DNA of 32,036 bases. Origin: a virus. The notes under the pieces were generated by a model, which was not told the DNA's origin, did no database searches, and saw only the letters and a list, made by a program, of their open reading frames with translations. This document shows, one piece after another, positions 10,284-25,892 of this stretch (positions are counted from its first letter, which is position 1; each line of letters opens with the position of its first letter). Made by a program: the position numbers and the translations under genes. Location: IMG/VR virus record IMGVR_UViG_3300030389_004215, positions 1 through 32,036 of that record. The stretch is one strand, 5' to 3'.

Positions 10284-11143
10284 AAGCTTTAGTAACTGGT
10301 GGCGTAGGATTTATTGGTACTAATTTAGTTAAACGATTATTGGACGATGGTAATAAAGTTGTTAGTTTAGATAACTATACAACAGGAGTGAAAGAAAATG
10401 AAATACAGCAAAAAGGTGTTCAATACTTTGATGTTGATTTGAGATATGTACACGATTATGACTTTTTTATGGATAAACCTGATGTTATTTTTCATACAGC
10501 TGCACTTGCTAGAATACAGCCATCATTACAGGATCCAACTACGACCATTCAAAATAATTTTGATAGCACACTTAACATATTAGAGTGGGCTAGACGTAAA
10601 AAATGTCCTGTTATATTTGCTGGTTCAAGTTCTTTTCATCAAGGGTTGTGGGGTAGTCCTTATGCTTGGTCAAAGTTTGCTGGTGAACAACTTTGTGAAC
10701 TATACAATAAGGTTTATAATTTACCAACTGCTATTTGTAGGTTTTACAATGTGTATGGTCCACATCAGATAGAGGGTGGTGACTATGCTGCTGTCATTGG
10801 TATTTTTGAAAGACAATATAAAAACCATGAACCGTTAACCATAACTGGTGATGGGGAACAAAGAAGAGACTTTACTCATGTAGATGACATTGTTGATGGT
10901 CTAATTAGATGTGGAGAAAAGATAAATAAAGTTAGTGGTGAAGAATTTGAACTTGGTAGTGGGGTTAATTTTTCAATTAATGAAGTAGCAAATATGTTTG
11001 GAGATGATTATTCAAAAGAGTATATTCCTGCAAGAGATGGGGAGTATGAAATGACATTATGTACTGATGATAAAGCCAATAAATTATTGGGTTGGAATCC
11101 AAAAAATAATATTAACGACTATATTAAGGGAGTTGTAAGATGA
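10280..11143 (+). CDS. Extended SDR NDP-sugar epimerase/dehydratase (GalE/WbpP-like)
   Basis: A 287-residue extended SDR enzyme acting on a nucleotide sugar with NAD(P). The dinucleotide motif is GGVGFIG (residues 7-13), the cofactor-side acidic end is SLDNYTTG, and the catalytic set is intact: AGSSSF (Ser116-118) and YAWSK (Tyr128, Lys132). RFYNVYGP and RRDFTHVDD follow, both typical of the sugar-binding half. This pattern fits UDP-hexose 4-epimerases and related dehydratases; substrate specificity cannot be fixed. It is compact, about 30 residues shorter than usual. It precedes the thiamine-enzyme pair with an ATGA overlap. Confidence 0.82.
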   Translation: MKALVTGGVGFIGTNLVKRLLDDGNKVVSLDNYTTGVKENEIQQKGVQYFDVDLRYVHDYDFFMDKPDVIFHTAALARIQPSLQDPTTTIQNNFDSTLNILEWARRKKCPVIFAGSSSFHQGLWGSPYAWSKFAGEQLCELYNKVYNLPTAICRFYNVYGPHQIEGGDYAAVIGIFERQYKNHEPLTITGDGEQRRDFTHVDDIVDGLIRCGEKINKVSGEEFELGSGVNFSINEVANMFGDDYSKEYIPARDGEYEMTLCTDDKANKLLGWNPKNNINDYIKGVVR

Positions 11144-11772
11144 GTGTAAAAATACCAAAACATCTTGAGAAAAAAAGAGATGTTACAATTACGAAAGAAG
11201 AGCTCATAGAGTTTGAAACTGAAGTTAAAAATAAATACGAAGATGGAGAAGTAAAAGCTCCTATTCATTTAGCTAAAGACAACGAAGATGAGTTAATTGA
11301 AATTTTCCAATACATAGGTGTAAATGATTGGGTGTTTCAGGCTTGGAGAAATCACTACCACGCTTTACTACATGGTTTTGACAGACAACAATTAATGGAT
11401 GACATTGTTGAGGGTAGAAGTATGGCTACAAGTAGTAATATCCATAAGTTTTATTCTTCTGCGATAGTAGGTGGTGTAATACCAATCGCTCTTGGAACTG
11501 CCATGGCTTTAAAGAGAAACGACTCGGATGATAAAGTGTGGTGTTTTGTTGGGGATATGACTTTTGAAACTGGTGTTTTTCACGAGTCATATAAATATGC
11601 TAAAAACTTTGACTTACCAATTCAGTTTGTAGTCGAAGATAATAATTTAAGTGTTCACACACCAACAGATGCTGCTTGGGGTATTAGACAAGAAGTACCA
11701 GATGATGTTGTGTACTATAGATATGAAAATGGATACCCACACCACGGTACTGGTGCTTGGGTTAACTTTTAA
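11140..11772 (+). CDS. Thiamine-diphosphate enzyme, PP-domain subunit (E1-alpha/transketolase-N type)
   Basis: A 210-residue ThDP-binding subunit. GDMTFETGVFHES (residues 138-150) and VVEDNNLSVHTP (164-175) form the GD-to-NN cofactor motif, with Asp139 as metal ligand and Asn169 closing it, as in E1-alpha of 2-oxoacid dehydrogenases and the N domain of transketolase. An N-terminal RNHYHALLHG (70-79) matches the E1 YRDH segment, and YSSAIVGGVIPIALG fits the next helix. It is much shorter than E1-alpha (about 330-360 residues) because the sequence stops soon after the NN motif. Ten bases separate it from its partner. With that subunit it should transfer or release a two-carbon ketol unit; its position beside a sugar 3-dehydratase suggests a sugar acceptor (inference). 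Confidence 0.82.
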   Translation: MSVKIPKHLEKKRDVTITKEELIEFETEVKNKYEDGEVKAPIHLAKDNEDELIEIFQYIGVNDWVFQAWRNHYHALLHGFDRQQLMDDIVEGRSMATSSNIHKFYSSAIVGGVIPIALGTAMALKRNDSDDKVWCFVGDMTFETGVFHESYKYAKNFDLPIQFVVEDNNLSVHTPTDAAWGIRQEVPDDVVYYRYENGYPHHGTGAWVNF

Positions 11773-11781
11773 GGGGTTATC

Positions 11782-12312
11782 ATGAAATACAAAGATGAAT
11801 TAATTAGGTCAATGAAATGGCTTGGTGAAAAAGAAAATACATTATTTTTAGGTCAAGCTACAGCATTTAGTGGTCACGCTATTTCTGGTACTTTAACTGA
11901 AGTACCTAAAGACAGACTAATTGAGTTACCTGTGATGGAAGAAGTTCAAATGGGTATGTGTGCTGGTCTTTCACTTGAAGGATATGTACCAATATCAATA
12001 TATCCAAGATTTAACTTTATGATGTTGGCAATAAATCAGTTAGTTAATCATATTGATAAAATGAAAAAAATGAGTAAGGGTATGTTAGTTCCGAAAGTAA
12101 TTGTTAGAGTTGCTGTTGGTGCAAGAAAACCATTAGACGGTGGAGAACAACACACTCAAGATTTTACTAAATCAATAGAATGTATGTTAACCGATACAAC
12201 TTTAGTTGAGTTAACGGAGCCAGAACAAGTATTTGACACCTTTGTTGACGCTTATAATAGAAATGGCTCTACTGTAATTGTTGAGTGGGGAGATTTTTAT
12301 AGTGAAAAATAA
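11782..12312 (+). CDS. Thiamine-diphosphate enzyme, PYR-domain subunit (E1-beta/transketolase-central type)
   Basis: A 176-residue pyrimidine-binding subunit, partner of the gene just upstream. ELPVMEEVQMGMCAGLSLEGY (about residues 48-68) carries the glutamate that activates ThDP; YPRFNFMMLAINQLVNHIDKM and GGEQHTQDF (about 120-128) match E1-beta. The C-terminal transketolase-C domain of about 120 residues is missing, so each half of the enzyme is reduced to its cofactor domain. Such minimal PP + PYR pairs are known as two-subunit decarboxylases, but the sequence here is E1/transketolase-like. The start follows AAGGGG at 11771-11776 in the context ggggttatcATG. It overlaps the PLP enzyme gene by 11 bases. 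Confidence 0.82.
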   Translation: MKYKDELIRSMKWLGEKENTLFLGQATAFSGHAISGTLTEVPKDRLIELPVMEEVQMGMCAGLSLEGYVPISIYPRFNFMMLAINQLVNHIDKMKKMSKGMLVPKVIVRVAVGARKPLDGGEQHTQDFTKSIECMLTDTTLVELTEPEQVFDTFVDAYNRNGSTVIVEWGDFYSEK

Positions 12313-13471
12313 GTTCAAGTGGCAACTGATAAATGATAGTATCACAGATGGTGACAAAAAAGCATTAACAGATTTTATCAATACACCCAATCAAAGGTTT
12401 ACAAATGGTCCTAAAGTTAAAGAATTTGAAAAAGCTTGGTCTGAATATGTGGGATGTGATTTTAGTGTATTTGTAAACTCAGGTGCCTCAGCTAATTATA
12501 TTATGGCTTCAATTATGAAAGAAGAGAAAGGAGTTGGTGAGGTTATCGTGTCTCCTTTAGGTTGGGTTTCGGATGTATCACCATTAGTTAATTTGGGATT
12601 TACTCCTGTCTTTGTTGATGTCAGTATGGAAAATATGTCTATCACTCTTGATAATATCAAGACTGCTGTTACGGATAAAACAGTTGGTGTTTCTTTAGTT
12701 CATGTTCTTGGGTTTGCTGCTGTAACAGATGAGATGAAAAAGTTTTGTGATGATAACGATTTATTTTTTATTGAAGACTGTTGTGAGTCTCATGGAGCAA
12801 CTTATAAAGGGACTAAAGTGGGTAACTTTGGTGCGGTCTCTAACTTTTCTTTTTACTTTGGACATCACATCACTACGATTGAAGGTGGCATGGTTTGTAC
12901 AAACGATGAAAGGTTATATGATTACGCAAAACTATTTAGGTCACATGGAATGACGAGAGAAGCTTCAGTTCAACTTCAAGAACAATATGAAAGAAGTAGA
13001 CCAGACTTAAATCCACTATTTACTTTTGCCGTGCCGGGTTACAACATGAGAAACCAAGAGTTAAACGCCGTCTTAGGATTAGAACAATTAAAAAGACTCA
13101 ACTATAATTGTGACAAAAGACGAGAAAACTTTAAGTCATGGGTTGACTCATTAAATTCAGATAAATTTTTTGTTGATTTTCATCAGAACGGAAATAGTAA
13201 TTTCGCATTACCATTAGTTTTAAAAGAAAAAGACTTGGAATTGTTTGAAAAATGTTGTATATTATTAGAAGAACAAAATGTAGAATATCGTGTCGGAACT
13301 GCTGGTGGTGGTAACCAAGCAAGGCAACCATATTTAGATAAGTATAATTTTATTGCACATGACTTATCAAATGTAGACCACATCCATGATTTTGGTCTGT
13401 ACATTGGAAACCATCCAGAATTGGTAGATGAAGACATTGTAAATTTATGTAAGGAATTAAATAACTTATGA
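12302..13471 (+). CDS. PLP-dependent NDP-sugar 3-dehydratase, ColD/RfbH-like (DegT fold)
   Basis: A 389-residue DegT/DnrJ/EryC1-family protein. It keeps NRFTNGPKVKEFE-type N-terminal residues, FVNSGASAN (residues 57-65) and FIEDCCESHGA (156-166; Asp159 pairs with PLP). The lysine that normally binds PLP is replaced: the motif reads SFYFGHHITTIEGG with His188-His189. His in place of Lys defines the sugar 3-dehydratases ColD (GDP-4-keto-6-deoxymannose) and RfbH/E1 (CDP sugar). I see no RfbH-type [2Fe-2S] cysteine cluster after the motif, which favours ColD. The start is GTG 12302, with GGGGAG at 12287-12292; an in-frame TTG at 12278 would add eight residues. The expected product is a 3,6-dideoxy-4-keto sugar nucleotide. 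Confidence 0.83.
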   Translation: MKNKFKWQLINDSITDGDKKALTDFINTPNQRFTNGPKVKEFEKAWSEYVGCDFSVFVNSGASANYIMASIMKEEKGVGEVIVSPLGWVSDVSPLVNLGFTPVFVDVSMENMSITLDNIKTAVTDKTVGVSLVHVLGFAAVTDEMKKFCDDNDLFFIEDCCESHGATYKGTKVGNFGAVSNFSFYFGHHITTIEGGMVCTNDERLYDYAKLFRSHGMTREASVQLQEQYERSRPDLNPLFTFAVPGYNMRNQELNAVLGLEQLKRLNYNCDKRRENFKSWVDSLNSDKFFVDFHQNGNSNFALPLVLKEKDLELFEKCCILLEEQNVEYRVGTAGGGNQARQPYLDKYNFIAHDLSNVDHIHDFGLYIGNHPELVDEDIVNLCKELNNL

Positions 13472-14376
13472 TTGATTTAAACAATAAAAACATATTAGTC
13501 ACTGGTGCTAATGGTATGATTGGTAAAGAGTTAGTTCGAATACTAAAAGAAGAATATTCTCCAAGATATATAAGTGAAGTTGACTTACCACATTATGATT
13601 TAAGAGAAAGATCAACTTGTGAAACAGTATGTGATGGTCAAGAGATTGTTTTTCATTTAGCTGGTATAAAAGGTTCACCACAAAGATGTATGGAATCTCC
13701 AGCTTCTTTTAGTGTACCAATGATTCAGTTCAATGCTAATATGATTGAGGCTTCGTACAACGCTAATGTAGATTGGTTTCTATACACAAGTTCTGTTGGT
13801 GTTTATCATCCAGCAGAGGTATTTGAAGAAGATGATGTATGGGAGACGTTCCCATCAAAAAACGATTGGTATGCTGGTTGGGCTAAAAGACTAGGTGAAA
13901 TGAATGTTGGTGCATATATGAAACAATATGATTGGAATAAATGCTCAATAGTAAGACCGGCAAATGTATACGGACCTAATGATAATTTCGGTAAATGGTC
14001 AATGGTCGTACCATCATTAATAAAAAAAGCTATGGAGAATGATACTTTATCAGTATGGGGTGATGGTTCACCGATAAGAGATTTAATATATGCTGAAGAT
14101 GTTGCTCGTGGTATGATACATATGGTAGAAAACCAAGTTACTGAACCAGTTAATCTTGGTAGTGGTACAGGAGTTACTGTAAAAGAAGTAGCAGACATTG
14201 TTGCTGGATATTTTAATAAAAAAATAGAATGGGATACTAGTAAACCTATGGGTGATATGAAAAGATTGATGAGTACGAAGAAATCACAGAGTCATGGTTT
14301 TACACCCAAAGTTAGTTTAGAACAAGGTATAATAAAAACAATACAATGGTATAAGGAGAATAAAGATGTTTTATAA
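13468..14376 (+). CDS. Extended SDR, GDP-fucose-synthase/ColC-like, atypical active site (copy 1)
   Basis: A 302-residue extended SDR. The cofactor loop is TGANGMIG (residues 12-19), FHLAGIKGSP is the strand-4 region, and YTSSVGVYHP holds the catalytic serines (108-109). VRPANVYGPND and GSPIRDLIYAEDVARG mark the sugar half. It resembles the GDP-fucose synthase/WcaG/ColC group that epimerises and reduces GDP-4-keto sugars. The active-site run is DWYAGWAK: the Tyr is five, not four, residues before Lys140, and Ala136 occupies the normal Tyr position. Activity is therefore uncertain. It lies directly after the ColD-like gene, where a ColC-type reductase would be expected, and is followed by a relative. 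Confidence 0.75.
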   Translation: MIDLNNKNILVTGANGMIGKELVRILKEEYSPRYISEVDLPHYDLRERSTCETVCDGQEIVFHLAGIKGSPQRCMESPASFSVPMIQFNANMIEASYNANVDWFLYTSSVGVYHPAEVFEEDDVWETFPSKNDWYAGWAKRLGEMNVGAYMKQYDWNKCSIVRPANVYGPNDNFGKWSMVVPSLIKKAMENDTLSVWGDGSPIRDLIYAEDVARGMIHMVENQVTEPVNLGSGTGVTVKEVADIVAGYFNKKIEWDTSKPMGDMKRLMSTKKSQSHGFTPKVSLEQGIIKTIQWYKENKDVL

Positions 14377-15313
14377 AAATAAAAAAGTGTTAGTAACTGG
14401 TGCTGGTGGTTTACTTGGTTCACAAGTAGCAAAGATGTTAGTTGAACAAGGTGCTACTGTTAGAGCCAGTTACAGAGGTAGAGAAGTTCCGAGTTGGGTT
14501 GGAGATGTTGAGTCCGTGAAGGCAGACTTTATGAACATTGAAGATGTTAAAAAATGTGTGAAAGGAATGGACATAGTTTTTGTTTGTTCTGCTAATACAT
14601 CAGGTGCTGGAGTTATGGCTCACGATCCACTACAACATGTAACGCCTAATTTAATTATGAACTCTACGTTAATGGAAGAGTCCTATAGAGCTGGAGTAGA
14701 TAGATTTTTCTTTGTTAGTAGTGCAACAACATATCCACCAGCAGACTATCCAATAAAAGAAAATGAGGTTTATAACGGAGAACCTTACAAAACTTACTTT
14801 GGTGTTGGTTGGATGAAAAGGTACACAGAAATACTTGGACAATTTTATCAAAGAAATGAAATGATGAAAATAGCTACAGTTAGACCAGCAAACATATATG
14901 GTATTCAAGGCGACTTTACTGATGAGACTGGTCATGTGTTACCTGCTCTGATAAGAAGAGCTTTGGAAAAACAAACTCCTTATCAAGTTTGGGGTAATCC
15001 TGATGTAGTTAGAGACTTTACACATTCTGTAGATATGGCTCGTGCTTGTCTAGATGTAGTCGAACATTATGCTGTTTGTGATCCTATCAACATTGCCTCT
15101 GGTAATTTAGTTACTATAGGAGAAAGTGTTGATTTAATATTAAAATGTGCTGGTCATGATGTTACGCCAGAGTATGATGAAAGTAAACCTGTAACTATTC
15201 AGTACAGAGCATTAGATACTACAAAAGCTAAAGAGGTAATTGGTTATGAACCAACAATATCTTTTGAAGATGGTATTCAAGAAACTGTGGATTGGATTAG
15301 GGATAACATGTAA
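14366..15313 (+). CDS. Extended SDR, GDP-fucose-synthase-like, atypical active site (copy 2)
   Basis: A 315-residue relative of the preceding SDR. It has TGAGGLLG (residues 11-18), VFVCSANTSG, FFVSSATTYPP (Ser118-119), VRPANIYG and PDVVRDFTHSVDMARA. The run before the catalytic lysine is YFGVGWMK: Lys151 is present but Val147 stands where the catalytic Tyr is expected, four residues earlier. Tandem copies that both depart from YxxxK suggest either a shared alternative active site or a non-canonical role such as epimerase-only or heteromer partner. It overlaps the upstream gene by 11 bases, and the next start lies just after its TAA. Confidence 0.75.
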   Translation: MFYKNKKVLVTGAGGLLGSQVAKMLVEQGATVRASYRGREVPSWVGDVESVKADFMNIEDVKKCVKGMDIVFVCSANTSGAGVMAHDPLQHVTPNLIMNSTLMEESYRAGVDRFFFVSSATTYPPADYPIKENEVYNGEPYKTYFGVGWMKRYTEILGQFYQRNEMMKIATVRPANIYGIQGDFTDETGHVLPALIRRALEKQTPYQVWGNPDVVRDFTHSVDMARACLDVVEHYAVCDPINIASGNLVTIGESVDLILKCAGHDVTPEYDESKPVTIQYRALDTTKAKEVIGYEPTISFEDGIQETVDWIRDNM

Positions 15314-15314
15314 T

Positions 15315-16046
15315 ATGATAACTAAGGATATGCAAACGACATTGACTTATTTATATGAAAAGCTAGATACAGAATCTAAAGTTTATTATAGTCGTTTTGG
15401 AGATGGTGATTTCCAAATCATTAAAGGTGAGCGTGAGATGATGCATAAATATTCGCCAGAACTTGCTGACGAATTGAGGGAATCCTTCGGAATAGTTGAT
15501 AATAATTACATTCGAGGCACAATGTATAATGAACCTACATATAACGGAAGTCAATTGATAAATCAATCATCTGAAAATTTCAAACATATCCTTGAGATTA
15601 TTAAAGATAACTTTTCGAATTACAAAGAGTTCGTGTTATATTCTCATGTGTTATTTACATATATAGTTATGCATGAACAAGATATATTTTTAGATTTTAT
15701 GAACAATTTTATTCGACCAAAAAGAAAACTCTTTATAGGATCTATAAAAAAATCATCAATAGAAAGATTGGTCGGTGATGTTCATTATTGTGTAGCAGTT
15801 CCATCAAGAGATGCTTATTACAACATAAATGAATGGTGGCCAGAGGTTTTAGATTGTATTAATGATGTTGAATTAGTTTTACCTTCTGCTGGTATGGCGG
15901 GTAGAGTTATTCAAAAAAGATTGTGGAACTTAGATAAGAATATTCATAGTATAGAATTAGGTTCAATGGTTGATGTGGTAGACGATTTAAATACGAGAAG
16001 TTGGATGAACAATAAAAAACAAATTATAGATAGGATTTTAATATGA
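15315..16046 (+). CDS. GT-D-fold glycosyltransferase (DUF1792-like)
   Basis: A 243-residue protein with the GT-D family hallmark YYSRFGDGDFQIIKGE near its N terminus (residues 24-39). In DUF1792/GT-D enzymes this loop carries a DxE-type metal motif; here it reads Asp30-Gly-Asp32. Later segments KLFIGSIKKSSIERL, VAVPSRDAYYNI and VLPSAGMAGRVIQKRL are also typical of the family, which transfers hexoses onto protein-linked or polymer glycans in known members. I chose ATG 15315, one base after the previous stop, over an in-frame upstream codon at 15240 that would lie inside the SDR gene. It is soluble and overlaps the next gene by ATGA. Confidence 0.72.
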   Translation: MITKDMQTTLTYLYEKLDTESKVYYSRFGDGDFQIIKGEREMMHKYSPELADELRESFGIVDNNYIRGTMYNEPTYNGSQLINQSSENFKHILEIIKDNFSNYKEFVLYSHVLFTYIVMHEQDIFLDFMNNFIRPKRKLFIGSIKKSSIERLVGDVHYCVAVPSRDAYYNINEWWPEVLDCINDVELVLPSAGMAGRVIQKRLWNLDKNIHSIELGSMVDVVDDLNTRSWMNNKKQIIDRILI

Positions 16047-17011
16047 ACATATTAATAACAGGTGGTACTGGTTTTGTAGGTAGTCATATGATTGATTACA
16101 TATTAAAGTATGCTATAAAACCGAATCAAAAATTATATTGTACAAAAAGATGGATGGAAGATACTAAAAATGTTGATCACATCGATGATAAAAGATTTGA
16201 ATTTATTGATTGTGATTTACTAGACGCTAATAGTATACGAAGGGCAGTGGAAATTTCTAAACCAGAAAAGGTATTTCATTTTGCTGCTCAAAGTTTTCCT
16301 GAAGTTAGTTTTAAAATACCTATTATAACACTACAGACAAACACAGTTGGTACTACACATTTATTGGAAGCTATAAAAGAATCAGATTATGATCCTGTAA
16401 TTGTTAGTGTTTCAACAAGTGAGGTTTATGGTATGCCAGAAGAAGATGAAGTTCCGATTAAAGAAACAAACCCTATTAGAGCTGCTAATCCATACTCAAT
16501 ATCAAAGGTTGGTCATGATTTGATGTCTCAGTATTATTACAAAGCATACGGTATGAAAATTATCGTGACTCGTATGTTTAGTCATGAAGGTGCTCGTAGG
16601 GGTAAACAATTTGCTCTATCTTCTTTTGCGTATCAGATTGCTAAAGCTGAAAAACTTGTGGGTGAACAATTTATATATCATGGTAATTTGGATTCAACAA
16701 GAACCTATGCTCATATTGACGATGCGATAAGCGCTTATTGGGTGTGTTCTAATAGTCAAAAGTTTGGAGAGGTTTACAATATCGGTGGAGACCAAACTTG
16801 TACGGTCGGAGAAGCATTGGATAAGTTAATCAGTATGTCCACGAAGAAAGACCTAATAAAAAAATTAGACAAAGATAGATTAAGACCTACTGATATCACA
16901 TTACAGATACCAGACACCACCAAGTTCAGACATGAGTTTGCTTGGACACCGATGAAAAATCTAACAAACGTATGTGAGGATTTATTAAAGTATTGGAGAG
17001 GTGTTTTGTGA
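16043..17011 (+). CDS. GDP-mannose 4,6-dehydratase-like SDR
   Basis: A 322-residue extended SDR of the NDP-sugar 4,6-dehydratase type. It has TGGTGFVG (residues 6-13), FHFAAQSFPEVSF (78-90) and NTVGTTHLLEAI, with the dehydratase triad region STSEVYG (124-130; Thr125, Glu127) and YSISK (Tyr151, Lys155). RMFSHEGARRGKQFALSS aligns with the GMD RRG loop that binds NADP in a neighbouring subunit. It is less typical than the GMD at 24933, and NADP-GMD, CDP-glucose 4,6-dehydratase or a related enzyme are all possible. It sits just before an RmlC-like epimerase, so a 4,6-dehydration followed by 3- or 5-epimerisation is plausible. Confidence 0.8.
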   Translation: MNILITGGTGFVGSHMIDYILKYAIKPNQKLYCTKRWMEDTKNVDHIDDKRFEFIDCDLLDANSIRRAVEISKPEKVFHFAAQSFPEVSFKIPIITLQTNTVGTTHLLEAIKESDYDPVIVSVSTSEVYGMPEEDEVPIKETNPIRAANPYSISKVGHDLMSQYYYKAYGMKIIVTRMFSHEGARRGKQFALSSFAYQIAKAEKLVGEQFIYHGNLDSTRTYAHIDDAISAYWVCSNSQKFGEVYNIGGDQTCTVGEALDKLISMSTKKDLIKKLDKDRLRPTDITLQIPDTTKFRHEFAWTPMKNLTNVCEDLLKYWRGVL

Positions 17012-17481
17012 TAAACGGTGTGGTAATTAGAGAACAAGATACTTTTACTGATTATAGAGGTGACCTTTATACCATTTGGAAAGATGGTGATTTTGATTTG
17101 GAATTCAATCATGATAAAGTCTCTACATCAAGAAAAAATGTTTTGCGTGGGATACACGGTGACCAAAAATCTTGGAAACTAGTAACTTGTCTTTATGGCG
17201 AAATATACTTTGTCATCGTAGATAATAGAGAATCTTCAGATACATTTACACAATGGGAATCTATGTTATTAAGTGATAGAAATAAAAGACAAGTTTTATT
17301 ACCACCAGGTGTTGGTAATGGTTTTTTAGTGATGAGTAATACTTCAGTTTTTCATTATAAATGGTCTTACGAAGGGGAATATCCAGATGTGGATAAACAA
17401 TTTACGATAAAATGGAATGATCCAATAATAGGAATAGATTGGCCAATACAAAATCCAATTTTATCAAGGAGAGATAAATGA
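17008..17481 (+). CDS. dTDP-4-dehydrorhamnose 3,5-epimerase-like (RmlC) protein
   Basis: A 157-residue cupin of the RmlC group. FTDYRGDLYTIW, then NVLRGIHGDQKSWKLV (His50 corresponds to the catalytic base of RmlC), WESMLLSDRNKRQVLLPPG and IKWNDPIIGIDWP follow the family order. One departure is GVGNGF around residue 104, where RmlC usually has AHGF with a histidine, so this may be a 3-epimerase or otherwise altered enzyme. The start is GTG 17008 overlapping the previous TGA, with GGAGAGG at 16995-17001; an in-frame TTG at 16993 is less likely. The likely substrate is the 4-keto sugar from the dehydratase just upstream. Confidence 0.8.
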   Translation: MINGVVIREQDTFTDYRGDLYTIWKDGDFDLEFNHDKVSTSRKNVLRGIHGDQKSWKLVTCLYGEIYFVIVDNRESSDTFTQWESMLLSDRNKRQVLLPPGVGNGFLVMSNTSVFHYKWSYEGEYPDVDKQFTIKWNDPIIGIDWPIQNPILSRRDK

Positions 17482-18257
17482 AAATTAGCATAATGTGGAT
17501 GACTAGAAAAAGGTCACATGAACTAATTTATTCTTTATCATCTTTTATCATGAGAGCAAAAGATAATTCTAATGTGGAATACATAGTTATTTCAGATCCT
17601 GATGATGATGACACATACGAGGCTATTGAAAAAATAAATAGAATGTGTTTTGTCGATGATGTAGAAATAAAAAACTTAGTTTCTGATAAAAGATATGGAT
17701 ACGAAGAATTAGAGCAGTATCAAAATATTGTTGGAGAGGTTTTCACTGGCGATTGTTTATTTATAATGAATGATGATGTGGTATGTTTAAATGATGATTG
17801 GGATGAAGAAATAAGGAACTCACTAAAACCTCATGTCGAAAATGCAAGATGGATAGGTTTGGCCGGAGTAAATGAAAATTGGAAAGGTTCTACGACTTTT
17901 GTGGGTATTAATCGAAAGTGGTATGACATAACAAAAAGAGTTTCAGGAAACAGAGCTACAGATGGTTACATAATGACGCTTGGTAAAAAGTTAGGAATAG
18001 AGCCACTAAGACCTAAAGTAGAAATGGTTCACTTACAAAGAGGTAGAGAAACTGTTACATTTGAACGAAACAATAAGAGATATATTACTGGTGGATTACC
18101 AGACGATGGTTTAGGTGGATATCCAACTGAAAGTCCAAAACCACCAAAATATTACCACGATCATAATGAGTTCACAAATGACTACACCGATTTTGTAGAG
18201 GGTAAAAAAAGATTTGATAAAGACTTCAAAAAATTAAAGGAACACTATGCAAAATAG
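17478..18257 (+). CDS. GT2-like glycosyltransferase
   Basis: A 259-residue GT-A-like protein. The start MKISIMWMTRKRSHELIYSL and VISDPDDDDTYEAI (37-50) match the nucleotide-binding sheet, and LFIMNDDVVCLNDDWDE (94-110) holds the metal-binding acidic pair Asp99-Asp100, replacing a strict DxD. A C-terminal PPKYYHDHNEFTNDY segment is His/Tyr-rich. No membrane span is seen. It overlaps the RmlC-like gene by ATGA and the next small gene by 11 bases. A glycosyltransferase is the most likely role; the sugar is unknown. Confidence 0.68.
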   Translation: MKISIMWMTRKRSHELIYSLSSFIMRAKDNSNVEYIVISDPDDDDTYEAIEKINRMCFVDDVEIKNLVSDKRYGYEELEQYQNIVGEVFTGDCLFIMNDDVVCLNDDWDEEIRNSLKPHVENARWIGLAGVNENWKGSTTFVGINRKWYDITKRVSGNRATDGYIMTLGKKLGIEPLRPKVEMVHLQRGRETVTFERNNKRYITGGLPDDGLGGYPTESPKPPKYYHDHNEFTNDYTDFVEGKKRFDKDFKKLKEHYAK

Positions 18258-18636
18258 AAAATACTTACCAACAATTGCAGAATTGATAGATAGGCTTTCT
18301 ATCATTCAGTTAAAAGAGGTTTTTATTACAGAACATAAAGAAGAGTATGCTAAAGAAATAGAAGATATAGTTCATGATTTGTCGGAGCTTGGTTTGAACG
18401 GAGAGATGATAAGAGCAATCATAGTATTGGCTCAAATGAATTTACACATCTGGCATAACGAAACAAAATATAGAGCGGGTGAAGGTGATGGAAATCTTGG
18501 TTTGACTCACGGACTAAATGGTATCAGAAATACAGCAAAGAATATTATACAAGACCATGTTGATGATAATAGTAGAAAAGATTATAAGATAGATTGTATC
18601 GCTGCTGAGTTCAAAGATTGGGAAGTGTCTTGGTAG
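18247..18636 (+). CDS. Helical hypothetical protein, possibly DUF4254-like
   Basis: A 129-residue helical protein. LPTIAELIDRLSIIQLKEVF (residues 6-25) and AQMNLHIWHNETKYRAGEGDG (about 62-82) resemble the IxELIDRLSIxxLK and NxxxWHxED phrases of DUF4254, a family of unknown function often found beside LPS glycosyltransferases. I am not certain of the match. There are no catalytic motifs of known sugar enzymes and no membrane span. Its start is inside the end of the preceding gene and its end overlaps the next, so it is tightly coupled to two transferase-like genes. Confidence 0.55.
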   Translation: MQNRKYLPTIAELIDRLSIIQLKEVFITEHKEEYAKEIEDIVHDLSELGLNGEMIRAIIVLAQMNLHIWHNETKYRAGEGDGNLGLTHGLNGIRNTAKNIIQDHVDDNSRKDYKIDCIAAEFKDWEVSW

Positions 18637-19467: not shown

Positions 19468-19920
19468 ATGACACTACAACATGGAAATATAAAAACACAA
19501 GTTGCTATGGAAAGTTGTCATATTCCTAAAGGTTGGGGTGAAGAAATTATTATAGAAAATAATGAAATGTATTGTGGGAAGATATTAGTTTTTAAAAAAG
19601 GATGTAAATTTTCCATGCATTACCACATGAATAAAGATGAGACTTGGTGGATAGAAAAAGGTGAATTTAATTACACTTTCATAGATACTGAGACAGCGTA
19701 TCCGACAACAATTAAACTAACACCTGGTTGGGTAGTTAGACAATATCCTGGTCAACCACATCAGTTGGAAGCCTTGACTGAGGGTAGGATATTCGAAGTT
19801 TCCACACATCATGAAGACTCAGACTCTTATAGAGTATTACCAGGCGATAGTCAAGCGGCAGTATGGGATAGTATTGAAAATTTTAAAAAAGATGAAAAAT
19901 TAGGAGACAGACACAAATGA
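19468..19920 (+). CDS. Cupin-domain sugar-phosphate isomerase-like protein
   Basis: A 150-residue single cupin. Motif 1 is FSMHYHMNKDETWWIEKGEF (residues 48-67; His51, His53 and Glu58 as metal ligands) and motif 2 includes PGQPHQLEA (His98). The HYHxxKDE pattern is that of the C-terminal cupin of type II mannose-6-phosphate isomerases and of related stand-alone sugar isomerases. Because GDP-mannose is the probable precursor of this cluster, a phosphomannose-isomerase-like role is attractive, but a stand-alone cupin could equally be an epimerase or binding protein. It is followed by an ATGA-coupled sugar kinase. A ribosome site ggaga precedes ATG 19468. Confidence 0.72.
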   Translation: MTLQHGNIKTQVAMESCHIPKGWGEEIIIENNEMYCGKILVFKKGCKFSMHYHMNKDETWWIEKGEFNYTFIDTETAYPTTIKLTPGWVVRQYPGQPHQLEALTEGRIFEVSTHHEDSDSYRVLPGDSQAAVWDSIENFKKDEKLGDRHK

Positions 19921-20684
19921 AGATATTAGTAGTGGGGGATAGTTGTAAAGACATTTTTATATATGGTAAAGTTAAGAGGTTAACACCAGAAGCACCAGTG
20001 CCTGTATTTAATCCAACTAAAGAAAAATCAAATGATGGCATGGCAAAAAATGTTTCCAATAACATTGAAGCATTGAATGTTAATATATGTACAATAACTA
20101 ATAGAAATAGTATTAAGAAAATTCGTTATGTAGATGATAAGTCAAATCAATTAGTGATAAGAGTTGATGAACATGATTACTGTAGGAGAATACAAACGGA
20201 TGTGTTGACACAGATAAAGGACAATCATTGTAAACCACATTTCAATGACATCACAAAAGTTGATGCTATTGTTATTTCTGATTATGATAAGGGTTTTTTA
20301 GAGGAAGAAGATATTAAATACATATGTGAAAATAACAAAAATGTTTTTATTGATACTAAAAAGAAAATGGGCGATTGGATAGTAGATGCCGATTTTTTAA
20401 AAATAAATGATTTAGAATTTGAACAAAATAAAGAGTTTTTTGAATCATCAAAAGTTATGTTAGACAAGACAATAATAACGAGAGGTAGAGAGGGTTGTAT
20501 ATACAAAGGTAAGGTCTATCCAACTGATGATGTGCCAGTCAAAGATATATCTGGAGCTGGTGATACTTTTCTTGCTGGGTTAGTAGTGGAGTATGTAAGG
20601 AGTAATAACATAGAAAAGGCAATAGACTATGCTCAGGAATGCACAAAGATAGTTGTACAAAAACATGGTGTGTCTACTATTTAA
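19917..20684 (+). CDS. PfkB-family kinase, HldE/RfaE N-domain-like (heptose-7-phosphate kinase)
   Basis: A 255-residue ribokinase-fold kinase. The start VVGDSCKDIFIYG and RLTPEAPVPVF (residues 21-31) are the HldE/RfaE kinase-domain signature. VISDYDKGFL (119-128) and DISGAGDTFLAGL (210-222, catalytic Asp216) complete the PfkB pattern. HldE kinase domains phosphorylate D-glycero-D-manno-heptose-7-phosphate. Here the domain is short (255 versus about 310 residues) and the nucleotidyltransferase half of HldE is absent. No heptose isomerase, phosphatase or nucleotidyltransferase gene is seen in the window, so it may feed into a host heptose pathway or use another sugar phosphate. Confidence 0.82.
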   Translation: MKILVVGDSCKDIFIYGKVKRLTPEAPVPVFNPTKEKSNDGMAKNVSNNIEALNVNICTITNRNSIKKIRYVDDKSNQLVIRVDEHDYCRRIQTDVLTQIKDNHCKPHFNDITKVDAIVISDYDKGFLEEEDIKYICENNKNVFIDTKKKMGDWIVDADFLKINDLEFEQNKEFFESSKVMLDKTIITRGREGCIYKGKVYPTDDVPVKDISGAGDTFLAGLVVEYVRSNNIEKAIDYAQECTKIVVQKHGVSTI

Positions 20685-23948: not shown

Positions 23949-24936
23949 TAGAACATATGTAATCGGAACTCATGTAATGTGGTTTGAGATAGAAATGTAT
24001 TCTGATTTTATAGATGGGATGATAAATCTTTTACAAACGGTAGAGAATAAAGAAAATGTAACAATAGATTTATGTCTAAATTTACTTCAACATTTTGAAG
24101 AAGTTGATACTGATAAAATTAAAAAACATGAGATATTCGTAAAGTTTAAAAGAGGAATTGCTAAATTAGAAGAGTTAGGTTATTGGGTTAACTTTGAAAT
24201 AAAAGACGATGATGAATTTTATTTTCATGCCGATTATAGACGAGACTTAAATTACAACTATTGTAAAAAAGTAGATTATGTTATGTGGGGTGAAACAGAT
24301 AGTTTCTTTCCACGAGAGGCATTTCAAGTGATAGAGTCATTAGCTAAATATACAGATGAACAAAACATTCACAGATATTTACTAAGTTTTTCAGATAGAA
24401 AGATGTGGGATGCTAGTTGGGATCCGTTAGTACACAATGATTATGTGAACTTACAATTCATAGATGATGACAAAGGACATTTGAATCCTAATCAAGCTAA
24501 GTCACCTATGTCAATTGAAAAAATGAATGAAATAAACAGTAAGGCTGAAGAGTTCGATTTTTCATACATTCAACATCCAAAAATAAGTGGTGCTTGTTTA
24601 GTATTATCATCAGATTTAATAAAATCTGGTGTAAATATCCCACCTTGTTTATTATATAACGATGATGAGGGTTTGTCAATAATGGCACATAAGTTACTTG
24701 GAGATAAATACATTCAGTTTGTAGTTAAAAATGTATTACATGTTCATGCTAGAAGACACCCTCAAAAGAGAATGTATGTTAAAGGTGAAGATAATCCTTA
24801 TTCTTTTATCGGAGATAAAAATGATAATTTTCAAAAGTTTTTAAGTATGTCAAAACAAAACATACAAACTCTTGTTACAGAACAAGGTAAATTTAAAGAA
24901 TATAATGATTTAAAAAAGTTATTGGAGTCAAAATGA
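23935..24936 (+). CDS. GT-A-like glycosyltransferase
   Basis: A 333-residue protein with GT2-like features: an N-terminal [27 protein letters not shown], the acidic motif [16 protein letters not shown] (about residues 115-130, with Glu120 and Asp122), and [13 protein letters not shown] followed by [19 protein letters not shown], where the ED-type acidic pair of inverting enzymes would be. [13 protein letters not shown] is a basic end segment. GGAG at 23925-23928 supports ATG 23935. It lies immediately before gmd, with ATGA coupling. A transferase role is likely but the family is distant from textbook GT2. Confidence 0.62.
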
Positions 24937-25892
24937 AGAGAGTATTAATTACAGGTATTAATGGAATGGATGGAAGTCACCTTGCCGATTTTCTTTTAGA
25001 AAAAGGATATGAAGTGTACGGTATGGAAAGAAGGACATCAAGTCCAAATAGAACAAATACTAAACACTTAGAAGGCAAGATAACATTTGTAAATGGTGAC
25101 TTGACAGACCAAAATTCATTGGTAAGATGTTTAAGAGAATCAAATCCAGATGAAGTTTACAACCTTGCTGCCCAATCTTTCGTTGGTGAAAGTTGGAATA
25201 CACCTGAACAAACAGGTGATGTTACAGGTCTTGGTGCTTTGAGAATGCTAGAGGCAATAAGAGAGTATGGAAAAGAGATTAGGTTTTATCAAGCGTCAAC
25301 CTCAGAGCTTTATGGTAGAATGATTGAAAACCCAGCAAACGAAAACACACCTTTTTATCCTCGTTCACCTTATGGAGTTGCTAAACTATATGGGCATTGG
25401 ATTACTAAAAATTATAGAGAGTCTTATGATATGTTTAATGTAAGTGGTATCTTATTTAACCATGAGTCAGAAAGACGAGGTATTGAGTTTGTAACTCGTA
25501 AGATTACAGATGGTGTTGCTCGTATTAAGTTAGGGTTGTCGGATAATTTAACTTTAGGTAACTTAGATAGTAAAAGAGATTGGGGATATTCACCTGATTA
25601 CGTTAAGTCAATGTGGTTGATGTTACAACAAGATGAACCAGACGATTATGTTATTGCTACAGGAGTTGAACATTCTATAAGAGATTTCTTGGATTGCGCT
25701 TTCGATTACATAGGTGTTTCTGATTGGTCTAAATATGTTTTACAAGATGAAAGATATATGCGACCAGCAGAGGTTGCTGTATTATGTGGTGATTCATCGA
25801 AAGCTCGTGAAGTTATAGGATGGAAACCAGAGACTTCTTTTGAACAGATGGTTTTCAATATGGTAGGTAACGATATAAAGTTATTAGGATGA
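24933..25892 (+). CDS. gmd: GDP-mannose 4,6-dehydratase
   Basis: A 319-residue GMD converting GDP-mannose to GDP-4-keto-6-deoxymannose, the precursor of fucose, rhamnose, colitose and perosamine. It matches the family strongly throughout: [21 protein letters not shown] at the start (Gly8, Gly11 and Gly14 of the cofactor loop), [21 protein letters not shown] (Thr123, Glu125), SPYGVAK (Tyr147, Lys151), FNHESERRG and [15 protein letters not shown]. It is about 30-50 residues shorter than cellular GMDs, mostly in the C-terminal part. Its product is the expected substrate of the ColD-like enzyme at 12302, 12 kb upstream in the same orientation. Confidence 0.93.

Follow-up and report, generated by a model that had tools for sequence, protein, structure and literature searches.

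This study concerns three adjacent genes in a 32,036-base virus record from an uncultured marine phage (IMG/VR record IMGVR_UViG_3300030389_004215, positions 1 to 32,036; the whole stretch is called the window here), two of which encode short thiamine diphosphate enzyme subunits and the third a homologue of the pyridoxal phosphate (PLP)-dependent sugar 3-dehydratases. The left end of the record carries phage genes, namely a clamp-loader A match, ClpP, and a PD-(D/E)XK nuclease, and these are followed by approximately 27 kb of genes for glycosyltransferases and enzymes of nucleotide-sugar metabolism. Genes are named by their first coordinate and are listed in Table 1. The open reading frames of 11140, 11782, and 12302 were all found, with lengths of 210, 176, and 389 amino acids, respectively; the last begins with GTG and would encode 397 amino acids if the TTG at 12278 were taken as the start instead. 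The three genes lie within a single tight operon, in a same-strand run with gaps to neighbours of -4, +9, -11, and -4 nt, and a Shine-Dalgarno-like run precedes each of the three starts. An earlier reading made without database searches (the sequence-only reading) had proposed that they form part of a branched-chain sugar pathway, and its gene calls agreed with the open reading frames found.

A comparison with solved structures revealed that 12302 was closest to ColD (2gms, 5.3e-54), ahead of RfbH/E1 (3.4e-45) and of every true aminotransferase. The first histidine of FYFGHHITTIEGG in 12302 aligned with the residue altered in mutant ColD entries, and a histidine occupied this PLP-lysine position in all 80 viral relatives of 12302, which disfavours an aminotransferase function. 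The 47 3-dehydratases found beside thiamine pairs all kept the first histidine, six of them reading FGHQ. RfbH-type dehydratases carry iron-sulfur cysteines; in the alignment, a cysteine-rich insert was absent from 12302 and present in the RfbH-like paralogue of viral locus L021. Because ColD is the closest relative, a histidine stands at the catalytic position, and the cysteine insert is lacking, 12302 is assigned by its sequence as a ColD-type 3-dehydratase. The sequence-only reading had described a His-for-Lys enzyme of the ColD/RfbH kind; the histidine and the ColD type were borne out. Some phages carry a second, RfbH-like 3-dehydratase (L021 5338-6675, L027 5329-6675, and the left ends of L009, L012-L014, and L016), and the cysteine insert was seen in the L021 copy, the sole copy aligned. 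The "aminotransferase" of the Synechococcus phage ACG-2014f (L100 8992-10185) has the 3-dehydratase histidine and is therefore probably no aminotransferase.

Profile searches assigned the products of 11140 and 11782 to the E1_dh and Transket_pyr families, respectively, and thiamine-site residues were kept, in agreement with the two-subunit thiamine diphosphate enzyme proposed earlier. The AlphaFold model of the alpha subunit (predicted local distance difference test score, 93.5) had pyruvate dehydrogenase (PDH) E1-alpha as its top fold matches, and the residues R70xH72, G138-D139, E166-D-N168-N169, and H201 aligned with PDH. In the beta subunit, E53 and H124 took the positions of the Glu and His that are conserved in PDH E1-beta and were invariant across four phage relatives. 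Compared with PDH, the alpha subunit lacks approximately 100 C-terminal residues and the phosphorylation-loop segment, and the beta subunit lacks the Transketolase_C domain, with Transket_pyr alone being detected by Pfam. This loss of parts that contact partners in complex-bound E1 would fit an enzyme without an E2 partner. The best curated matches of both subunits were PDH E1 models, with scores far below the cut-offs of those models. Quick trees were built with Shimodaira-Hasegawa approximate likelihood ratio test (SH-aLRT) support only and contained some long branches; in them, the short alphas formed their own clade (98% SH-aLRT) on a long branch, apart from the ordinary cellular E1-alpha rows. 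The grouping with ordinary 2-oxoacid dehydrogenases, unlinked to 3-dehydratases, that had been named as speaking against the proposal was thus not recovered. Judged from these comparisons, the first two genes encode a reduced thiamine pair of the E1 type that stands separate from ordinary 2-oxoacid dehydrogenases. Homology of the pair to YerE was rejected on architecture, since the pair consists of two short E1-type chains and not a single-chain decarboxylase-type flavoprotein.

The short-alpha clade includes proteins of the cyanophages S-SM2 and P-TIM68 and of a 735-kb phage, together with SAR11, Parcubacteria, Verrucomicrobia, and archaeal members, and relatives of the short alpha are encoded in more than 500 viral stretches. 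The short alphas fall into two subfamilies, GDM(T/S)FETG (that of the window) and GDG(T/A)ED.GH (S-SM2, P-TIM68, and the 735-kb phage).

The gene neighbourhood was analysed in 80 viral loci picked by the 3-dehydratase alone, of which 26 remained after 85% redundancy removal and the requirement of 6 kb on each side. Loci centred on a true GDP-mannose 4,6-dehydratase (GMD; n = 80, of which 28 were used for the pair count) served as the control. An alpha-type subunit was present in 66 of the 80 3-dehydratase loci. A two-subunit thiamine pair was present in 25 of the 26 complete non-redundant loci but in only 1 of the 28 GMD-centred loci, although 8 of these 28 hold a His-type DegT. The single exception without a pair, L167, carries a GMD-like gene instead (short-chain dehydrogenase/reductase [SDR] neighbours were labelled by the best match among the window's own SDRs, and these labels are hence approximate). 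The exact order alpha-beta-3-dehydratase was found in 23 of 42 loci. The 3-dehydratase also lies immediately next to the pair in one bin each of Parcubacteria (L091) and Verrucomicrobia (L093), and 3-dehydratase and pair share a locus in Albibeggiatoa (L092). In the 34 complete loci centred on the alpha subunit, the beta subunit was always present and an RmlC-like gene was present in 29. The association of the pair with the 3-dehydratase is far above chance, and the search for the triad elsewhere, which the sequence-only reading had suggested, recovered it in other phages and in unrelated bacteria. The module itself is well supported, and a pathway to a deoxy sugar with a branched chain would agree with the recurring unit.

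The thiamine pairs of the 26 loci were of three kinds, which may overlap in one locus: 20 short E1, 3 longer E1 (approximately 277+303 amino acids, with E1_dh, Transket_pyr, and a weak Transketolase_C, as in L174 and L149), and 3 split transketolase. By parsimony, these kinds switch at least 11 times on the 3-dehydratase tree, a count that is indicative; different pairs have therefore been placed repeatedly beside the same 3-dehydratase. With three kinds of thiamine pair exchanged next to a single 3-dehydratase family, these loci resemble a naturally occurring series of variants in the branch chain.

Several loci contained further candidate modification genes. Genes for B12-binding radical SAM proteins adjoin the pair and the 3-dehydratase in L146 (6185-7714), L171 (7745-9283), L093 (12352-13917), and L092 (11291-14826), which suggests further C-C or methyl modification. 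Near the pair in the alpha-centred loci, carbamoyltransferases (25 loci) and 2-oxoglutarate-Fe(II) oxygenases (20 loci) may add extra sugar decorations. In L202, L219, L220, L230, L235, and L244, GMD lies beside a His-type DegT without a thiamine pair, and these loci may encode phage colitose-like pathways.

Table 1. Genes of the thiamine pair/3-dehydratase operon and associated glycan genes in the window
Feature	Coordinates	Strand	Evidence
Short E1-alpha-type thiamine diphosphate subunit, 210 aa (amino acids)	11140..11772	+	Pfam E1_dh 6.9e-13; AlphaFold model; PDH-like residues
Short E1-beta-type subunit, 176 aa, pyrimidine domain only	11782..12312	+	Pfam Transket_pyr 1.1e-6; PDH-aligned residues
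ColD-type PLP sugar 3-dehydratase homologue	12302..13471	+	PDB ColD 5.3e-54; His at PLP-Lys site; Pfam DegT_DnrJ_EryC1 3.1e-71
GDP-fucose-synthase-like SDR, candidate ketoreductase	13468..14376	+	NF047922 4.4e-46; PDB GDP-L-fucose synthase 2.4e-29; module-conserved
Second GDP-fucose-synthase-like SDR, candidate ketoreductase/epimerase	14366..15313	+	NF047922 1.6e-39; PDB 9.6e-30; module-conserved
GDP-heptose 4,6-dehydratase-like SDR	16043..17011	+	Best PDB 7us5
GDP-4-keto-heptose 3,5-epimerase-like, RmlC family	16993..17481	+	Best PDB 8db5 1.1e-48
Conserved 129-aa all-helical protein, module companion	18247..18636	+	Kept near 3-dehydratases and alphas
Small cupin	19468..19920	+	phrog_7851 9.7e-35; S-SM2 relative near heptose-type genes
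PfkB kinase related to heptose-7-phosphate kinase (HldE domain I)	19917..20684	+	TIGR02198 2.6e-38, below curated cut-off
True GDP-mannose 4,6-dehydratase, outside conserved module	24933..25892	+	TIGR01472 422 bits (cut-off 415); PDB GMD 1.6e-117

The remaining operon genes bear on the sugar involved. The SDR 16043 was closest to the Campylobacter jejuni GDP-heptose 4,6-dehydratase, and for its L021 relative this preference was still more pronounced (2.6e-103 versus approximately 1e-41); a single-sequence scan with 16043 recovered close relatives only, in 15 loci. The RmlC-like 16993 matched the C. jejuni GDP-4-keto-heptose epimerases at 1.1e-48 compared with 2e-27 for dTDP-RmlC, and its L134 relative behaved likewise. 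Relatives of the kinase 19917 were present in 49 of the 80 3-dehydratase-centred loci compared with 5 of the 80 GMD-centred loci. In cellular loci, the pair lies beside GHMP kinases best matching HddA, as well as HddC- and GmhB-like nucleotidyltransferase and phosphatase genes. Judging by these relatives, the substrate is more likely GDP-heptose than GDP-mannose. The helical companion 18247 was present in 59 of the 80 3-dehydratase-centred and 22 of the 34 alpha-centred loci; its near-invariant residues are ELIDRLSI, HIWHNE, THGLNGIRN, and KIDC, and no Pfam, PHROG, or PDB fold match was found in searches that included its predicted structure.

Two known systems supply the elements of a possible pathway. 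In C. jejuni HS:5, a 4,6-dehydratase, a glutamate-using PLP C3-dehydratase, an epimerase, and a C4-reductase produce GDP-3,6-dideoxy-heptose (PMC10440746). The 4,6-dehydratase, PLP C3-dehydratase, RmlC-type epimerase, and Fcl-type reductase are common to HS:5/HS:11 and the phage, where they are identified by closest relative only; in contrast to the phage operon, HS:5/HS:11 lack a thiamine pair, and only part of the heptose supply genes was found in the window. In antibiotic biosynthesis, two-subunit E1-type enzymes move a two-carbon unit from pyruvate onto C3 or C4 sugar ketones, whereas in yersiniose biosynthesis, the single-chain YerE performs the two-carbon addition (PMC12247030, PMC4425429, PMC4753412). 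Like the phage pair, the aKADH2 group (AviB1/AviB2, Pau11/Pau12, and KbDH) has separate E1-alpha and E1-beta genes, an E1-type site, and a place in a sugar-modification cluster. Pau11 and Pau12 comprise 325 and 345 amino acids, however, whereas the phage subunits comprise 210 and 176 and lack the beta C-terminal domain; moreover, the known aKADH2 enzymes serve antibiotics, and the phage pair is likened to them by architecture and descriptions. Because the phage beta subunit is not full length and the activity is a prediction from sequence, we did not assign the pair to the ketone-branching enzymes, but it may well work like one of them.

Combining the HS:5 pathway with these two-subunit precedents, acetyl transfer to the C4 ketone of a GDP-(3,6-di)deoxy-4-keto-heptose would be the most likely reaction. 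GDP-heptose would first be 4,6-dehydrated, and 12302 would strip O3 with PLP and glutamate. The pair would decarboxylate a 2-oxoacid, most likely pyruvate, and the acetyl unit would attack the C4 ketone as a carbanion, yielding a 3,6-dideoxy-4-C-acetyl-heptose; 16993 may set C5 ahead of branching. One of the Fcl-like SDRs (13468 or 14366) would then convert the branch to its hydroxyethyl form by reducing the ketone, and the finished sugar would be used by the glycosyltransferases of the island, probably on a host surface polysaccharide. That the triad stands at the centre of a phage pathway to a modified GDP-heptose, with the pair adding a two-carbon branch at C4, appears to us close to an even chance, held tentatively. 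We are more doubtful of the wider possibility that phages and hosts share a widespread route to a C4-branched 3,6-dideoxy GDP-heptose through a minimal E1-type enzyme of a new branch, in which the thiamine enzyme is swapped repeatedly (short E1, long E1, and split transketolase) to alter the branch and diversify surface glycans. A C4-branched 3,6-dideoxy-heptose would be a nine-carbon sugar, and no earlier description of one was found in the literature searched.

The sequence-only reading had taken yersiniose biosynthesis as its precedent. The logic of 3-deoxygenation followed by two-carbon addition at C4 is shared, but the enzyme is not: YerE, a flavoprotein of one chain, uses a CDP-3,6-dideoxy-4-keto-glucose, and the phage enzyme, with two E1-type chains, has its better precedent in the AviB1/AviB2 and Pau11/Pau12 group. 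The colitose pathway (GMD, ColD, and ColC) contains the closest solved relative of 12302, and Fcl-like SDRs follow 12302 in the phage; this pathway lacks a thiamine enzyme, however, and GMD does not travel with the phage module. Among phages, the "transketolase central region" protein of S-SM2 and P-TIM68 is a homologous pair, fused, and lies near a kinase related to 19917. It differs in belonging to the GDG subfamily, in having a Zn-alcohol dehydrogenase neighbour, and in lacking an annotated 3-dehydratase next to it. The open-access literature searched, which misses most subscription papers, contained no account of a phage pathway of this kind. The earlier statement that none is known nevertheless requires qualification: homologous pairs had gone unrecognised in S-SM2 and P-TIM68, and ACG-2014f contains a His-type ColD relative.

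Several findings weigh against C4 branching of a GDP-heptose by the pair. The main weakness is that only 17 of the 34 alpha-centred loci contained a 3-dehydratase, and in 18 of the 19 contigs without a nearby copy none was found on the whole contig, although these contigs are partial. A 3-deoxy substrate therefore cannot be a general requirement of the pair, which implies that, where the 3-dehydratase is missing, the pair may take an O3-bearing substrate or act otherwise. The alpha tree places the pair relative to ordinary cellular E1-alphas only and not to characterised ketone-branching two-subunit enzymes, and the GDG motif reads GDM in the window's own subfamily. The conserved SDRs look like C4-reductases; a C4 branch leaves no C4 ketone, so the SDRs must act on the branch ketone or on another sugar. 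Regarding heptose supply, none of HddA, HddC, and GmhA was recognised in the window, where the HldE-domain-I-like kinase stands alone, and kinases of the HldE type are part of the ADP-heptose (beta-anomer) route. The split transketolases of some loci could also supply a heptose precursor instead.

The heptose-type genes that accompany the pair, including those of S-SM2, P-TIM68, and the cellular loci, would also suit an upstream role, in which the pair makes or diverts a ketose phosphate for heptose synthesis and no nucleotide sugar is branched. Split transketolases at nearby positions in L146, L171, L179, and L184 point the same way, as does the lack of a 3-dehydratase in half of the pair loci. 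However, the sequence and fold of the pair are of the E1 and not the transketolase type, and L085, L047, and L055 hold a split transketolase and an E1 pair together. Furthermore, the pair lies directly against the 3-dehydratase and not the kinase, and is missing from GMD-type islands that have 3-dehydratases; we consider an upstream role unlikely. An ordinary 2-oxoacid dehydrogenase E1 carried for energy metabolism would explain why PDH E1 models are the best curated matches, but a housekeeping E1 was rejected on the low scores, the truncation of both subunits, and the separate clade. The pair is moreover found in glycan islands, and SAR11 has its own PDH E1 besides, which leaves this explanation very improbable.

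An unbranched GDP-3,6-dideoxy-heptose like that of HS:5, with the pair serving another sugar of the island, would account for the presence of all four HS:5 enzyme types (PMC10440746) and for SDRs that resemble C4-reductases. This explanation does not sit easily with a pair that is almost always present and usually adjacent to the 3-dehydratase, and no thiamine enzyme is mentioned for the reviewed C. jejuni heptose pathways (PMC10680097); we judge it improbable. The sequence-only reading had instead proposed that GDP-mannose is converted through GMD (24933) into a branched 3,6-dideoxyhexose, and a true GMD is indeed encoded in the window. The activity of ColD on GDP-4-keto-6-deoxymannose also counts for this route. 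Nevertheless, GMD is 11 kb distant from the triad, a GMD-like gene was near only 7 of the 80 3-dehydratase loci, and the dehydratase and epimerase of the module are closest to GDP-heptose enzymes. The scarcity of pairs in the GMD-centred control disfavours a GMD-fed colitose or yersiniose route, and with GMD 24933 not upheld as the supplier, the route from GDP-mannose appears at least as improbable as the unbranched heptose.

Regarding the biological role, the glycan genes of pelagimyophages have been proposed to change the host O-chain and thereby exclude competitors (PMC7029224). SAR11 genomes (L085, L086, and L090) carry the same pair, which would be in keeping with gene exchange between phages and the surface clusters of hosts, and virion glycosylation is also possible. 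Overall, these findings suggest synthesis, by many water-borne phages, of an unusual surface sugar that has seven carbons and may be carbon-branched. If C4 branching of a GDP-heptose is correct, phages of abundant aquatic bacteria encode much of the route to a rare higher-carbon sugar, and GDP-heptose deoxygenation, known from capsules, would be joined with two-subunit thiamine branching, known from antibiotics, which have so far been described apart. The pair would then offer a minimal E1-type enzyme for study, the role of phage glycan islands would become directly testable, and cyanophage proteins filed as "transketolase" or without function (phrog_34187) would be explained. The "phosphoheptose isomerase" label of two S-SM2 proteins (L001 19980-20291 and 21621-21950) also looks wrong, because these proteins comprise approximately 105 amino acids and have a start resembling that of haloacid dehalogenase (HAD) phosphatases, VDIDETIC.

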